Positions 10,957-19,046 of a stretch of 64,000 bases of DNA are shown one piece after another. The notes below the pieces were generated by a model, which had not been told where the DNA came from, did not search any database, and worked only from the letters and a program-made list of their open reading frames with translations. The stretch spans positions 248,001 to 312,000 of the forward strand of contig JAQWTL010000020.1 of assembly GCA_029242715.1 (NCBI GenBank), given 5' to 3'. The first letter of the stretch is position 1. The number at the start of each line of letters is the position of its first letter. A program made the translations under genes and the position numbers. Origin of the DNA: Phycisphaerales bacterium (lineage in GTDB: Bacteria > Planctomycetota > Phycisphaerae > Phycisphaerales > SM1A02).

Positions 10957-11892
10957 ATGATGAGCCAGAAACCCCACCCAAAGCCTGACAAAGTGGCCTC
11001 CCCAGAGCTGGTCTCCCAGAAAGACCGGACAGGCGCGATCATGCGGCTCCTGCCCAGTGGTGCCCATCAGGTTGATGCTGATCGATTTGAAGCCTTTGCC
11101 AAGGACAACCAGATTCCTCTGGATTGGCTTTGGACCTTGAAGGATGGGACCGGGCAGTTTGGTGCCTGTGTTCTGGCAGTGCCATCGCCGGGCCGGACAG
11201 CCATGCTGTTTACATCCCAGATCAACAACAATGATCAGGAATCACAATTGGCAGGTCTCCTGGATCACTGCATCGATTTTCTTCAGGATCAACCGGTGGA
11301 TCTTGCCCAGGCTTTGCTGCTCACATCCGACAACTCAAGTTGGAAAGCATATGAAACCAGCGGCTTCCAGGAACTGGCCGTGCTCCAGTACATGGAGATG
11401 CTGGTGCCAAAAAGGCTTGCGCCTCCGACACTGCCCGAAGGGCTGGAACTTGTTCCGTACGAGGAATCGCTGAGAAGTGAGTTGGCAAGCGCACTCGAAT
11501 CCTCCTACGAAAGCACGCTGGATTGCCCTGCGCTTCGTGGACTTCGAAAAACAGATGATGTCATCACTGGACACCAGTCAACCGGTAAATACAACGCTGA
11601 TCTCTGGTCGCTGGCAATGCATGATGGTGATCCTGTTGGCGCCGTCCTGATCAACCAGTCCACTCGAGGCAACCAGGCAGAACTTGTCTATATCGGTCTC
11701 GCTGCAAACGCACGAGGACGAGGTTGGGGGCGCACCCTGCTTTCACAAGGACTCTCACTGGCCTCCTCCGCACACTTGCAGCAAGTAGCCCTGGCGGTAG
11801 ACATCCAGAACACACCTGCACTTGATCTCTACACCTCCACGGGATTCATTGCTACCGGACGTCGGCAGGCTGTTATCCGATCCACGGGTTGA
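10957..11892 (+). CDS. GNAT-family acetyltransferase, two-domain
   Basis: The C-terminal half (residues of about 160-311) is a typical GNAT fold with the acetyl-CoA pyrophosphate loop ARGRGWGRTLLSQGL and the closing NTPALDLYTSTGFIATGRR motif. The N-terminal half also looks like a degenerate GNAT domain (ending WKAYETSGFQELAVLQYMEM), so the layout resembles mycothiol synthase-type tandem acetyltransferases. The substrate is not predictable. No start has a clear ribosome binding site: the ATG at 11041, where the conserved sequence begins, is a credible alternative. Confidence 0.8.
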   Translation: MMSQKPHPKPDKVASPELVSQKDRTGAIMRLLPSGAHQVDADRFEAFAKDNQIPLDWLWTLKDGTGQFGACVLAVPSPGRTAMLFTSQINNNDQESQLAGLLDHCIDFLQDQPVDLAQALLLTSDNSSWKAYETSGFQELAVLQYMEMLVPKRLAPPTLPEGLELVPYEESLRSELASALESSYESTLDCPALRGLRKTDDVITGHQSTGKYNADLWSLAMHDGDPVGAVLINQSTRGNQAELVYIGLAANARGRGWGRTLLSQGLSLASSAHLQQVALAVDIQNTPALDLYTSTGFIATGRRQAVIRSTG

Positions 11893-12342: not shown

Positions 12343-13791
12343 GTGTCCTGTCCTCAATGCCCTCGGGCCCTTCCAAGCCTGCCTTCCGAGCCCCTCGTGT
12401 CCACGCAAGCCCCAACAACCACCGACTCGATCACCGACCTCCTCAGCCAACGGCTGGGTCTTCGCCGACACGCTATGTGGTTTGGGCAAGCTCGATTACA
12501 ACTCAAACAGGACAACCTGGCAGTGGAGGCCGGCTCACAGTTTGCAGCTGACTGGATTCATGCTCATTTCGAAGGTGATATTCGTGAAGTCGCAGAACGA
12601 GTCGTAGGGAGCCCCGTCAAGGTCTCCGTCTCCGTCCGGGGCGATGAGCCAACGACCAAACTACCCCCGACTCCACCACCACCACCTGAAAGACGCCCCC
12701 AGCGACCTCGAAAACGGCAGGGAGGCCAACAGCATCGCCTCGATGAGTTCGTAGTGGGCTCCAGCAACGAGTTGGCCTGGTCCGCTGCCAGCCGGGTAGC
12801 TGCGGAGGCTGGTGATTGCCCCGTCTCCCCGCTCTTCATTCATGGCGGATGCGGATTGGGCAAGACCCATCTTCTTCAGGGCATCTGCAACCAGTACCGA
12901 GCTTCCTTCGGCCGCCATGATCCCATCCGCTATCTCACCGGCGAACAGTTCACCAACGAGTACATCGCCTCCGTTCGGGAGAGCAGGATCGACGAATTCC
13001 GCCGCTCCATGAGGCGGCTGGCCCTCCTCGTGATTGATGACATCCACTTCCTGAGTGATAAAGCCAAGACCCAGGCCGAGTTCCTGCACACACTCGATGC
13101 GATACACCTCACCGGATCACGGATTGTCCTGGCCTCTGATGCTCACCCTCATCAGATCCGTAGTTTCACCAAGGGGCTTGTCAGCCGATTTCTCAGTGGC
13201 ATGGTTGTCGAGATCGAACGCCCCAGCCGGGAAACAAGACGGTCTCTGATCAAACGGCTTGCGGACGCCCGAGGCATCTATCTTGAAGAACCCGCCACCG
13301 AGCTGATCGCTTCCCGCTGTATCGGATCCGTACGGGAAATACAGGGTGCATTGACTCGATTGACTGCATTGGTCCAGGTTCGGGGAGGGGCCAGCAAGGC
13401 GGTGAGCGTGGATACCGTTACACAGGTCTTCGAGCACGCCTGGGACACCACCCAGCCCATTTCCCTTGATCGGATCAAGGAAGTGGTCTGTAAACAGCTG
13501 CATCTGGCCATGGGCGACCTGACCAGCCGGGACCGAGGGCCCCGAGTTTCGCTGGGCCGAGGCCTGGTCGCTTGCCTGGCTCGTCGCATGACCGACTACA
13601 GCTATCCGGAAATCGCCCGGACACTCGGTCGACAGAACCACTCATCTGCCCATGCGGCAGCAAGGCGTATCGAGGCCATGGTCGAAGAGGACCGCACTGT
13701 TCGGCTCCCCGGAAAGGGTGGGCATGATGACGGGCGTGTCCTGGTCCGGGAGCTTCTGGATCGACTTCAACACGCCGTTTCCCACCCTTGA
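12343..13791 (+). CDS. dnaA: Chromosomal replication initiator DnaA
   Basis: DnaA opens oriC and recruits the helicase. A short domain I (AMWFGQARLQLKQDNLAVE, FAADWI) is followed by a proline/arginine-rich linker of about residues 100-130, and then the AAA+ domain with Walker A GGCGLGKTHL at 168-177 and Walker B VIDDIHFL at about 230. The C-terminal DNA-binding domain IV carries GRQNHSSAHAAARRIE in place of the usual GRDHTTVLHA signature; it is divergent but aligns. The start is uncertain: GTG at 12343 is used here, and GTG at 12397 is possible. dnaN, recF and gyrB are not beside it. Confidence 0.9.
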   Translation: MSCPQCPRALPSLPSEPLVSTQAPTTTDSITDLLSQRLGLRRHAMWFGQARLQLKQDNLAVEAGSQFAADWIHAHFEGDIREVAERVVGSPVKVSVSVRGDEPTTKLPPTPPPPPERRPQRPRKRQGGQQHRLDEFVVGSSNELAWSAASRVAAEAGDCPVSPLFIHGGCGLGKTHLLQGICNQYRASFGRHDPIRYLTGEQFTNEYIASVRESRIDEFRRSMRRLALLVIDDIHFLSDKAKTQAEFLHTLDAIHLTGSRIVLASDAHPHQIRSFTKGLVSRFLSGMVVEIERPSRETRRSLIKRLADARGIYLEEPATELIASRCIGSVREIQGALTRLTALVQVRGGASKAVSVDTVTQVFEHAWDTTQPISLDRIKEVVCKQLHLAMGDLTSRDRGPRVSLGRGLVACLARRMTDYSYPEIARTLGRQNHSSAHAAARRIEAMVEEDRTVRLPGKGGHDDGRVLVRELLDRLQHAVSHP

Positions 13792-13813: not shown

Positions 13814-13860
13814 GAATCCACGTGCTCCGGTTCAAGGTCACCTCCGGTACACTGGCTGGC

Positions 13861-15387
13861 ATGCCAGCTCAAGCTGCCGGATTACTACTGAAGCCCTCTT
13901 TGCTCCCACTGCTGATCCTGTCAGGACTGCTTGGTCTTGGATGGCAGTCAACAGTTCAGGGTGATGAGTCGACAAATACAACCAACGCCATCAGACACCT
14001 GAAGCGCACAATCACGCCTCAACGTGATGAAAGTCATCTGACCAGACTCACTGCGCTCAGAGGACTTGGTGACCCAGCACTCGAACAACTGTTCCTTCGT
14101 CTCCTCCAACATGATTCCTGGCAGGTTCAGGTCTATGCCGTACTTGGACTTGCCGAGTTGTCCGAGAACGGAAATGTAATGCCATGGCTCGTTACACAGA
14201 TCCACTCCGAAGCACGGGATCAGGTACTCGCGATTGCCATGGATGAACAGAGACTGGGGCCAGAAGAAATCGCCGAGTTGACTGAATGGAAAGGTCTGCA
14301 GCCAGCCAACCTTGTTGCCATGCTGGCTTACAGCAACTCCATTGGTGACACGGTAGACATCGAGATGCTCAAGCCACTGACCACCTCCAACAACGAAAAG
14401 GTGGCAGCTGCTGCCTGGCTCGTCATGGCTTGGCTTGGAGATGAAACGGCGCTCGAAAACATTGATGAAATCATCAAGGACCTGCCAGAAACACGGCAGT
14501 TCGACATCCTGCTGACGATGATCATGCTCATCAATCGCTACGAGATCAAGGAAGCAGCGCAGTGGCTGGATTCGCTTCTGAGCGAGTCACGATCACAGGC
14601 TCGATTCCAGGAAATGCTTCTTGCCGGTACCTCCACCCTCCTCATGCTTGACAAGGAACGTGGACTGAAGCATTGGAGGATTGAATTCGGGGAGAACCCC
14701 AAGAGGCGGCAGCAGATCACGGCCGCACTCATGCTGCTTCAGGTCGGCGTGGCACTGGAAGCTGAAGACAGCTCCAGACTGGATGTCGATGATGAACTCA
14801 TTGGGACCATCGTCGAGGCTGGAAATGCCGTGGCAAATGATCGTAGTGACACTCCACAACGACTGATCGAGCTCGTAGACCTCAATCACGTCCGATCAAC
14901 CACCTTGATCCCCGGTGTTCTTGAGAACCTGCCACCTGAACAGGCCACGGTCATCCTCAACAGTTTCCTGGACCGCATGGATAACGAGAACTTCACCAGT
15001 GTCGACCAGATGCTGGCCATCGACGCCACGGAACGGCTGCTTGAACTGGATCCTGATTTAGTGATTGAACGTCTGAAGATTGTCGCTGATGAAAGTCCTC
15101 TCCAAGAAGCCATGCTGTATGGCCTGCTGAGACAACGTGGCCCTGACGTGCTTGAAGCAGTGGAATCAATCCAACAGATCGGTCTGTCGCGTACGGATTC
15201 ACTGGCACTCCTGGTGATTGCACGTGATAGCGAAACTCTCGATGAAACACAGCTTGGACGACTGGGCCTCATTGCATCCGGCGGTGGCCTGGTAGAACCC
15301 CTGCAGGTTCAGGCAGCATGGCTTTACCTGAAACATACTGGCTCGGTGGATGACGCCATCAACCAGTTGGTCCCTGAAGGTTCCTGA
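13861..15387 (+). CDS. Exported HEAT-repeat-like protein
   Basis: From the ATG at 13861 the protein has 508 residues and starts with a hydrophobic leader (SLLPLLILSGLLGLGW) that is either a signal peptide or an anchor. The rest is almost wholly helical with paired-helix units resembling HEAT/ARM repeats, for example LRGLGDPALEQLFLRLLQ followed by SWQVQVYAVLGLAEL, and VAAAAWLVMAWLGDETALE. Such solenoids usually bind proteins. An ATG at 13822 adds 13 residues without improving the leader. The next gene starts 10 bases after its stop, so the two may be co-transcribed. No specific function can be assigned. Confidence 0.65.
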   Translation: MPAQAAGLLLKPSLLPLLILSGLLGLGWQSTVQGDESTNTTNAIRHLKRTITPQRDESHLTRLTALRGLGDPALEQLFLRLLQHDSWQVQVYAVLGLAELSENGNVMPWLVTQIHSEARDQVLAIAMDEQRLGPEEIAELTEWKGLQPANLVAMLAYSNSIGDTVDIEMLKPLTTSNNEKVAAAAWLVMAWLGDETALENIDEIIKDLPETRQFDILLTMIMLINRYEIKEAAQWLDSLLSESRSQARFQEMLLAGTSTLLMLDKERGLKHWRIEFGENPKRRQQITAALMLLQVGVALEAEDSSRLDVDDELIGTIVEAGNAVANDRSDTPQRLIELVDLNHVRSTTLIPGVLENLPPEQATVILNSFLDRMDNENFTSVDQMLAIDATERLLELDPDLVIERLKIVADESPLQEAMLYGLLRQRGPDVLEAVESIQQIGLSRTDSLALLVIARDSETLDETQLGRLGLIASGGGLVEPLQVQAAWLYLKHTGSVDDAINQLVPEGS

Positions 15388-15397
15388 AGGTAATCAA

Positions 15398-16564
15398 GTG
15401 GAATCCAACGCTTCCGTGAGTCGAATACCACTGAGCCAGCATGATCTACTCGAGCGAGATCTGAAAGGGCTGGCACAAGAACTCCGCAACGGGAACATGG
15501 TCGGTGGTCCTCGCATCGAGGAACTGTCAGAACATCTGACTTCAATCACCCAGCAGCTTGAAGCCGTTCCGACAGCAACCTACTCGGATGCCGCACGTGT
15601 TCTCCTGCTCGCAATGGACATCCACGAAGGTGATGAGGTCATCCTCCCCGCCTTTGCTTCAACAGCCATGACTCAGGCCGTTGTTTCGGTAGGCGCAACA
15701 CCTGTCTATGCTGACTGCCACCCCAGAACACTCAATATCGCACCCACTGAAGTCGAAGCATGCGTCACACCCGCGACCCGCGCCGTCATCGCCACCAGCA
15801 TCTTTGGGAATCCTGCAGGCCTCCCTCAACTGGCAGCCCTCTGCGGACTGCTGGAAATCCCCTTGCTGGAAGATCTCTCAGGAGGTCTTGGAGGAACAAT
15901 CGATGGACGACCTGCTGGCTCATTTGGCTGGGCAACCATCATTGACCTTGGCCCGTATTCAGTTGTCGGCTGCGGCGAAGGTGGCGCGATCATCACTTCT
16001 GATCAGCCTCTGGCCAAACGTTGTGAAGCCCTCCGAAATGGAGACGATCTGGAACCCTCCCGACAACCGGGCGACTATCCCGGGTCACTTGGCTTGCGAT
16101 GCAACCTGACAGGCATCCAGGCGGCCATTGCCATCTCCCAACTTCGAAGGCTGGACGACATCATCGAGGCACGCGCTTCTGTTGCTGCCAGCTACACCCA
16201 ACGGCTTGCTGGCACCAGCGACATCGTGGTGCCCACGGTTGATCCAGGGACAACTCTTGGATGGCCCGCATTCGTAGTCAGACTTGACGAAGCGTATGGC
16301 GGCGAAGATCGCAATGAGATCGTCAACGGCATGGAACGTCATGACATTGGGGTAGCAACACCCTGGATTCCGCCACCACTGCGACCACAAGTTGCCGCAA
16401 GATTGAAGCTGCCGGCGGAAAAACAACAGTGGCTGGTTACCGAATATGTCTCCCAACGAACGATCGCGTTGCCGATGTATGGCGGATTAACGGATCGAGA
16501 CGTCGGACTGGTAACTCAGACGCTTGAACTGATGATGCAGCGATCGACTTTTCGTCGAGGCTAG
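15398..16564 (+). CDS. DegT/DnrJ/EryC1/StrS-family protein lacking the PLP lysine
   Basis: The fold-type I aminotransferase framework is clear: the N-terminal block GNMVGGPRIEELSEHL, VILPAFASTAMTQAVVSVGA, TPVYADC, the pyridine-binding Asp159 (PLLEDLSGGLGG) and the glycine loop GCGEGGAI. In active members the internal-aldimine lysine sits five residues before that GEGG loop, as in a K-x-x-x-x-G-E-G-G pattern; here that position is Ser188 (DLGPYSVVGCGEGG). The DNA codon is TCA and the frame is uninterrupted. It is therefore probably not an aminotransferase. It may be a dehydratase-like relative, a PMP-binding enzyme or a regulator. GTG at 15398 has GAAGGT 6 bases upstream. Its stop shares bases with the flgE stop (CTAG). 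Confidence 0.8.
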   Translation: MESNASVSRIPLSQHDLLERDLKGLAQELRNGNMVGGPRIEELSEHLTSITQQLEAVPTATYSDAARVLLLAMDIHEGDEVILPAFASTAMTQAVVSVGATPVYADCHPRTLNIAPTEVEACVTPATRAVIATSIFGNPAGLPQLAALCGLLEIPLLEDLSGGLGGTIDGRPAGSFGWATIIDLGPYSVVGCGEGGAIITSDQPLAKRCEALRNGDDLEPSRQPGDYPGSLGLRCNLTGIQAAIAISQLRRLDDIIEARASVAASYTQRLAGTSDIVVPTVDPGTTLGWPAFVVRLDEAYGGEDRNEIVNGMERHDIGVATPWIPPPLRPQVAARLKLPAEKQQWLVTEYVSQRTIALPMYGGLTDRDVGLVTQTLELMMQRSTFRRG

Positions 16565-18449: not shown

Positions 18450-19046
18450 TCAACCTTGATCGCCATCCCCATCTGAATCCCCATCTGAATCATCATCTGA
18501 ACCATCATCTGAACCATCATCAGTGTCGTCATCAGTATCGTCATCAGTATCACCACCGCTGTCGTCATCGGTATCGTCACTCGTGTCGTCACCAGCGTCA
18601 TCCGTTCCATCAGACCCCTCTATTGCATCCAGGACTTCCTGCGTGATGATGGTTTCCACGCCGGAAATTGGAAGGAAGGCCCCGCTGTCGAGTTCCAATG
18701 CGATCTCATCGCCCTGCCGTATGACGGCTTTCACGATTCCACCAAGACGCACGCCACTCCAATCCAATCCCCCGACAAATCGGCCGATCAGGCCACTTGC
18801 AGAAGCCAACTGGTTCTCGAAAACCAGAGTCTGCATGTTGTCCACCATCTTCATGTCCGATTCAATTGATCGAATCGAGTTCATCTGATCTAGAAGCGCA
18901 GCAGAATCCGTTGGAGCCAATGGATCCTGATTGGTCAGTTCCGTAAACATGATCTTGATGAAATCCTCTGAACTCATGGAAGAGAAGCCGTTGGTCGTCG
19001 TCCTGTCCACGGCTCCGAAGAGATCTGGTGCATTGATCTGGCTCAT
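18450..19046 (-). CDS. flgD: Hook-capping protein FlgD with an Asp-rich tail
   Basis: FlgD caps the growing hook and directs assembly of FlgE. The conserved N-terminal domain is present at residues of about 20-75 (FIKIMFTELTNQDPLAPTDS, LLDQMNSIRSIESDMKMVDN). The region to about residue 140 resembles the FlgD core (LIGRFVGG, VKAVIRQGDEIALELDSG). The last 55 residues are an extraordinary run of Asp, Ser, Thr and Gly (DDTDDDSGGDTDDDTDDD and so on) without lysine or arginine. The FlgD Tudor-Fn3 module appears abridged. The gene overlaps fliK by four bases (ATGA) and is followed by flgE, which fits its role. Confidence 0.85.
   Translation of the reverse strand: MSQINAPDLFGAVDRTTTNGFSSMSSEDFIKIMFTELTNQDPLAPTDSAALLDQMNSIRSIESDMKMVDNMQTLVFENQLASASGLIGRFVGGLDWSGVRLGGIVKAVIRQGDEIALELDSGAFLPISGVETIITQEVLDAIEGSDGTDDAGDDTSDDTDDDSGGDTDDDTDDDTDDGSDDGSDDDSDGDSDGDGDQG
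18466..18620. repeat. Degenerate trinucleotide/hexanucleotide repeats coding for the FlgD tail
   Basis: The plus strand carries repeated CATCTGAA and TCGTCATCAGTA-like units between these positions. They are the coding basis of the aspartate-rich tail. Such repeats can expand or contract by slippage, so the tail length may differ between strains. Confidence 0.6.

Follow-up and report, generated by a model that had tools for sequence, protein, structure and literature searches.

The window, a stretch of 64,000 nucleotides from a Phycisphaerales bacterium, carries four genes on one strand that encode, in this order, a GNAT acetyltransferase, a DnaA-like protein, a HEAT-repeat protein and a protein of the DegT family (Table 1). 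The same order recurs in most of the related loci, whether their DegT product carries the family's catalytic lysine or lacks it. The DnaA-like gene of the locus is regarded as the second one, because a stronger PF00308 match sits on another contig (C23) in this genome, the only one to which the comparison applies. A GNAT gene beside an aminotransferase gene recalls amino-sugar acetylation pairs such as PseC/PseH. The flagellar gene flgE lies 3′ of the DegT gene, with a distance of at most 35 bases for the window genus and genus g16, at most 73 for g21, and more for other genera with the lysine. Beside flgE, the protein encoded at 18450-19046 on the minus strand ends in a long acidic tail rich in Asp, Ser and Gly. 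We take this product to be FlgD-like, from its place beside flgE.

Table 1. Features at the DegT locus, in positions of the window
Feature	Position	Strand	Basis and remarks
GNAT acetyltransferase, conserved neighbour	10957..11892	+	PF00583 E 3.4e-12; synteny
Second DnaA-like gene (DnaA N, ATPase, C-terminal domains), conserved neighbour	12343..13791	+	Pfam; synteny
HEAT-repeat protein, signal-peptide-like N-terminus (by eye), directly upstream of DegT	13822..15387	+	PF13646 E 5.5e-7; synteny
RBS-like GAAGG	15386..15390	+	Sequence; overlaps HEAT stop codon
DegT-family pseudo-aminotransferase (putative)	15398..16564	+	388 aa, GTG start; PF01041, AlphaFold2
Asp159, pyridine-nitrogen aspartate, kept	15872..15874	+	Alignment; equals Spr1654 Asp170 by the mapping of this analysis
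Ser188 codon TCA	15959..15961	+	Catalytic-lysine position by alignment to ArnB 1mdo/4oca
GCGEGG glycine loop	15968..15985	+	Sequence, orthologue alignment

A PF01041 match covers almost all of the DegT protein (E 7.7e-66; 223.2 bits against a gathering score of 19.8). An in-frame ATG lies upstream of the protein's GTG start, at 15350, inside the HEAT gene; the orthologue of a genus mate (L035) starts with MESN at the place equivalent to the GTG. Among proteins of known structure, its relatives in sequence are sugar aminotransferases of the DegT family, for example ArnB. The window protein does not reach the cut-off of the named NCBIfam equivalogs (ArnB, PseC, WecE and others), its best score being 159.7 against 631, and three orthologues that bear the lysine likewise stay below (best, 336.1 against 423.5). 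The AlphaFold2 model (pLDDT 89.1, pTM 0.88) finds its best PDB matches in ArnB and perosamine synthase, with Foldseek TM values of 0.86/0.92 to ArnB 4oca. The protein is thus predicted to have the type I aminotransferase fold.

The initial annotation placed Ser188 at the position of the Schiff-base lysine, and comparison with ArnB agrees. In a letter-by-letter alignment to ArnB (1mdo), FHAIKNITCAEGG lies opposite DLGPYSVVGCGEGG, and Ser188 corresponds to ArnB Lys188. In PDB entry 4oca, whose title names ArnB K188A, the same column holds Ala. The alignment is free of gaps around position 188, which rules out misalignment there. A sequencing error at the TCA codon, against which the initial annotation had itself cautioned, is excluded because the five other genomes of the window genus have S, S, T, S and S at this position. 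With both points in hand, the chance that the missing lysine is an artefact of alignment or sequencing is negligible. The annotation had also raised the idea of a conserved lysine elsewhere in the active site. The window protein has four lysines (23, 207, 337 and 342), none of them conserved among the genus mates, and the genus alignment contains no column with Lys in all six members; a replacement lysine is thereby ruled out.

The annotation further held that the pyridine-binding Asp159 and the rest of the fold are kept. Asp159 is indeed present, and the statement on the fold holds for the scaffold, as modelled by AlphaFold2, and fails for the site itself. At mapped PLP contacts the protein departs from the consensus of the Lys-bearing orthologues by E to G at 162, F to S at 88, G/A/S to D at 183 and T to S at 63; it also departs at 62 (G to Y) and 234 (N to R). 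The contacts used for this mapping are those of Spr1654; its description (PMC5936713) gives the PLP and substrate contacts and places the active sites at the dimer interface. By the mapping made here, Spr1654 His173, Thr59 and Ser194, which contact O3′ or the phosphate, equal G162, S63 and D183 of the window protein, and of these three only S63 could still serve as a cofactor contact. According to PDB titles, ArnB and perosamine synthase have been crystallised with ligands as mutants in which alanine replaces the lysine. With Asp159 kept and a Ser at the position of the phosphate-contacting Thr, the window protein may still bind PLP or PMP.

The lysine-less state extends far beyond the window. 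Of 201 genomes sampled across the order, 192 contain a match at E≤1e-40. Within the bacterial family, a profile match at E≤1e-75 was present in 166 of 181 genomes, and in 99 of the 104 of good quality; both are upper figures for the orthologue, as DegT paralogues can pass this threshold. From the family 120 loci were fetched, among the best matches listed, together with 20 from elsewhere in the order, and 139 usable orthologues were aligned, the window's own included. Position 188 is Lys in 54 of the 139, including all 20 sampled outside the family. The remaining 85, from 20 genera, have Arg (38), Ser (27), Glu (8), Thr (5), Asp (3), Gly (2) or Ala (2). Four further orthologues outside the 139 (L249-L252) also lack Lys, with R, R, S and G. 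Two loci with truncated extracted sequences, L097 and L114, stand outside the orthologue counts, and other loci of the same genomes show Arg at 188. The comparison of homologues around the glycine loop, which the initial annotation had proposed, therefore turns what it described as one odd gene into a loss that is common to the genus and family-wide, and apparently repeated within one family of Phycisphaerales.

One Lys-bearing sequence, L050 of genus g24, branches close to where the main Lys-less group begins. Its glycine loop reads GEGA, and GSAAAA replaces SSGTAG. It is perhaps an intermediate stage of erosion.

The loss is accompanied by changes at other positions of the site. The Spr1654 contacts (PMC5936713) were mapped in this analysis to positions 63, 88, 159, 162, 188, 194, 195, 322 and 323. 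When the columns with at least 95% conservation in the Lys-bearing members are considered, these nine were kept at an average of 0.32 in the Lys-less members, and the other 82 at 0.68 (Mann-Whitney p 0.0017; 0.005 when column 188 is left out). T63 falls from 52/54 Lys-bearing to 2/85 Lys-less members, F323 from 52/54 to 6/85, and N234 from 53/54 to none of 85. Asp159 is retained in all 54 Lys-bearing and in 26 of the 85 Lys-less orthologues, and the contacts G195 (0.95) and E194 (0.58) are partly spared. Twelve positions conserved in at least 95% of Lys-bearing members, such as E153, E158, G177, W289, R305 and P359, are identical in all 85 Lys-less sequences. E153 is invariant in 139/139 orthologues and is Gly or Asp in the four DegT paralogues of the window genome, a hint of an orthologue-specific, non-catalytic constraint. 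The alignments thus show that positions matching published PLP contacts eroded along with the lysine and that scaffold residues stayed.

The pattern of erosion bears on whether the protein is still an enzyme. ColD/E1-type PMP dehydratases have His at the lysine position. ColD and E1 (CDP-4-keto-6-deoxyglucose-3-dehydrase) belong to the same family and have the lysine replaced, and the initial annotation had pointed to dehydration of this type. The kept Asp159, and a Ser63 that could still touch the phosphate, would suit an enzyme with non-covalently bound PMP or PLP that catalyses a ColD- or E1-like dehydration, or another reaction that needs no lysine. However, His is found at position 188 in 0/139 orthologues, so that the ColD-like dehydratase is unsupported. 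The residue is also not conserved: S, T, R, E, D, G and A all occur, with both S and T even within the window genus. Within the same genus, position 63 is S, V, T, L, A and A, and position 234 is R, R, T, R, R and Q. A lysine-free enzyme is therefore quite improbable. We infer that transamination by the standard mechanism has been lost and the gene retained, in line with the initial annotation.

Retention of the gene is reflected in its substitution pattern. Out of 126 pairs of Lys-less sequences with at least 72% identity, 64 (dS 0.05-1.5) were used to estimate dN/dS. These pairs, not independent of each other and drawn from genera other than the window's, have a median dN/dS of 0.076 and a range of 0.02-0.28. 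The Lys-less form is under purifying selection in close pairs of these other genera. Among pairs of Lys-bearing sequences 66 of 102 qualify, with a median of 0.159; those listed are mostly more divergent. For the genus mates of the window, dS measured against the window gene has reached saturation (2.3-2.8) and dN/dS says little. The fold seems to persist as well: an eroded relative with Glu at 188 gives an AlphaFold2 model of pLDDT 83.2, whose best match is perosamine synthase.

Divergence of the protein is nevertheless accelerated. At a DnaA-like identity of 0.4-0.5, the mean DegT identity is 0.63 between Lys-bearing members and 0.38 between Lys-less members (L079, L133 and L180 were left out of the identity comparison). 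Because dN/dS is low in close pairs and identity drops from 0.63 to 0.38, the Lys-less DegT protein evolves faster, yet not neutrally. The faster divergence, which also fits a partly relaxed constraint, is what one would expect of a relic that has lost its function and now decays under neutrality. The open frames, however, are intact, dN/dS of close pairs is well below 1, and scaffold residues are invariant over 85 sequences from 20 genera, which makes such a relic highly improbable.

The HEAT protein behaves differently. At the same DnaA-like divergence its identity changes only slightly, from 0.32 (Lys) to 0.26 (Lys-less), unlike that of DegT. The initial annotation had suggested that the DegT protein acts with this upstream neighbour. 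The neighbour itself is conserved: of the 85 Lys-less loci, 82 have a HEAT match next to the DegT gene, two have a gene-sized gap there, and in one the upstream sequence is absent. The 54 Lys-bearing loci comprise 39 with HEAT, 11 with the DnaA-like gene directly adjacent, three with other upstream sequence and one without upstream sequence. As far as seen, the lysine was lost in HEAT-bearing lineages, and few independent events underlie this count. Of the 18 HEAT stretches inspected, one (L147) is not an N-terminus, and most of the other 17 look signal-peptide-like by eye; no signal peptide was seen by eye on the DegT protein. The two proteins may thus occupy different compartments. The signal-peptide-like N-termini argue against the suggested role, at least if it simply required the HEAT protein to bind a cytoplasmic DegT protein directly.

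The number of losses depends on the tree. In a quick tree of the unmasked DegT sequences, 75 Lys-less rows, the window genus included, group with the one Lys-bearing row L050, and g13 stands apart. After removal of 18 active-site columns, a group supported at 98/97 unites the window genus, g23 and g13 with the Lys-bearing g21, and there are three changes; a single Lys-less clade is not rejected with these masked DegT sequences (AU p 0.405). A quick tree of the DnaA-like and HEAT proteins, which covers 62 of the 73 chosen loci (11 have no DnaA-like match of sufficient length), places the window genus with the Lys-bearing g16 and g27 (SH-aLRT 96) and also gives three changes. The rpoB tree again has g16 and g27 as the partners of the window genus (93/88), gives four changes and rejects a single Lys-less clade (p 1.15e-13). 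It contains 29 of 30 genomes (G242 has no match), with three of the 29 rows partial. One genome in it, G285, was labelled Ser from its genus and actually has Gly; it is still Lys-less, and the counts are unchanged. Masking, the DnaA-like/HEAT tree and the rpoB tree all take the window genus out of the main Lys-less group of the unmasked tree. In two genomes rpoB is apparently split into two adjacent frames (L243/L245 on contig C11 of G191; L242 on contig C6 of G099), which may be genuine or may come from a frameshift or a faulty assembly.

Two separate origins of the Lys-less state are well supported by the rpoB phylogeny, and at least four losses would follow if the lysine was never regained. 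That a working enzyme at the GNAT/DnaA-like/HEAT/DegT locus turned non-catalytic at least four times independently is a tentative proposal, to which we give rather less than an even chance.

A spare canonical copy was looked for with a profile of Lys-bearing orthologues, searched against 60 Lys-less genomes (57 typed at position 188 by the orthologue alignment, three by further orthologues) and 11 Lys-bearing controls. The controls scored 547-689 bits, and the linked Lys-less gene itself up to 500.6 bits, whereas unlinked matches in the Lys-less genomes all stayed at or below 340.5 bits. A second canonical copy is found in none of the 60, and this difference in score rules out a canonical spare elsewhere in these genomes. 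Many of the familiar pseudoenzymes are inactive paralogues that exist alongside an active copy. Here the orthologue itself is Lys-less at a conserved locus, no canonical spare exists in the searched genomes, and sister genera keep the Lys. Deoxyhypusine synthase, which belongs to another enzyme family, offers a comparison. Its trypanosomatid dead paralogue is likewise a retained dead relative of an enzyme and is reported to work with its active partner (PMC3663545), whereas here a single-locus orthologue has itself lost the lysine.

More distantly related DegT paralogues do occur. The window genome encodes four other members of the DegT family in which the Lys is intact (L002-L005), and a PF01041 scan of 14 Lys-less genomes found in each at least one other DegT match of at least 278 bits. 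The Lys-less protein could therefore be the inactive partner of such a paralogue, in a heterodimer or an allosteric complex, as LCB1 is for LCB2. LCB1 of serine palmitoyltransferase (PMC3794620) is likewise a retained PLP-fold protein without the PLP lysine and pairs with a homologous active subunit; for the window protein the partner is only hypothetical. The active sites of Spr1654, formed at the dimer interface (PMC5936713), would suit such an arrangement. However, L002-L005 show no more than about 29-34% identity and are encoded on a different contig, and in 10 of the 60 Lys-less genomes the linked gene is the sole match to the canonical profile at E≤1e-60, so that a heterodimer partner would differ between genomes. 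We regard an inactive partner of this kind as unlikely, though the least so of the alternatives.

The explanation that we consider likely is a sugar aminotransferase that was decommissioned, repeatedly, and kept as a non-catalytic protein. The window protein shares full-length homology, the fold, Asp159 and the glycine loop with ArnB, PseC and GDP-perosamine synthase; it differs from them in having no Schiff-base lysine and in its other cofactor and substrate contacts. The scaffold is accordingly of the ArnB/PseC/perosamine-synthase type; the alignments show the loss of the PLP lysine and of a large part of the site for cofactor and substrate, and the models show a kept fold. The same locus appears to have lost the lysine independently several times in one Phycisphaerales family. 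The active ancestor would already have had a second, non-catalytic role there, such as that of a dimer with a structural or regulatory task. Where the chemistry became dispensable, this second role alone would keep the gene. The non-catalytic function was thus probably shared by the active ancestor.

Among the matches listed, the open-licence literature gave no account of planctomycete DegT proteins that lack the lysine. For the Lys-less members, the label "DegT aminotransferase", taken from a Pfam match alone, would mislead. The Lys-bearing sister genera, the Arg forms and the strongly eroded Ser, Glu and Ala forms provide a natural series for the question of a second job. If the four or more conversions are real, the ancestral enzyme would have had a hidden function, structural or regulatory, that belonged to the locus and outlasted its chemistry. 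This function may have been the sensing of nucleotide sugars for the DnaA-like protein or the cell envelope.
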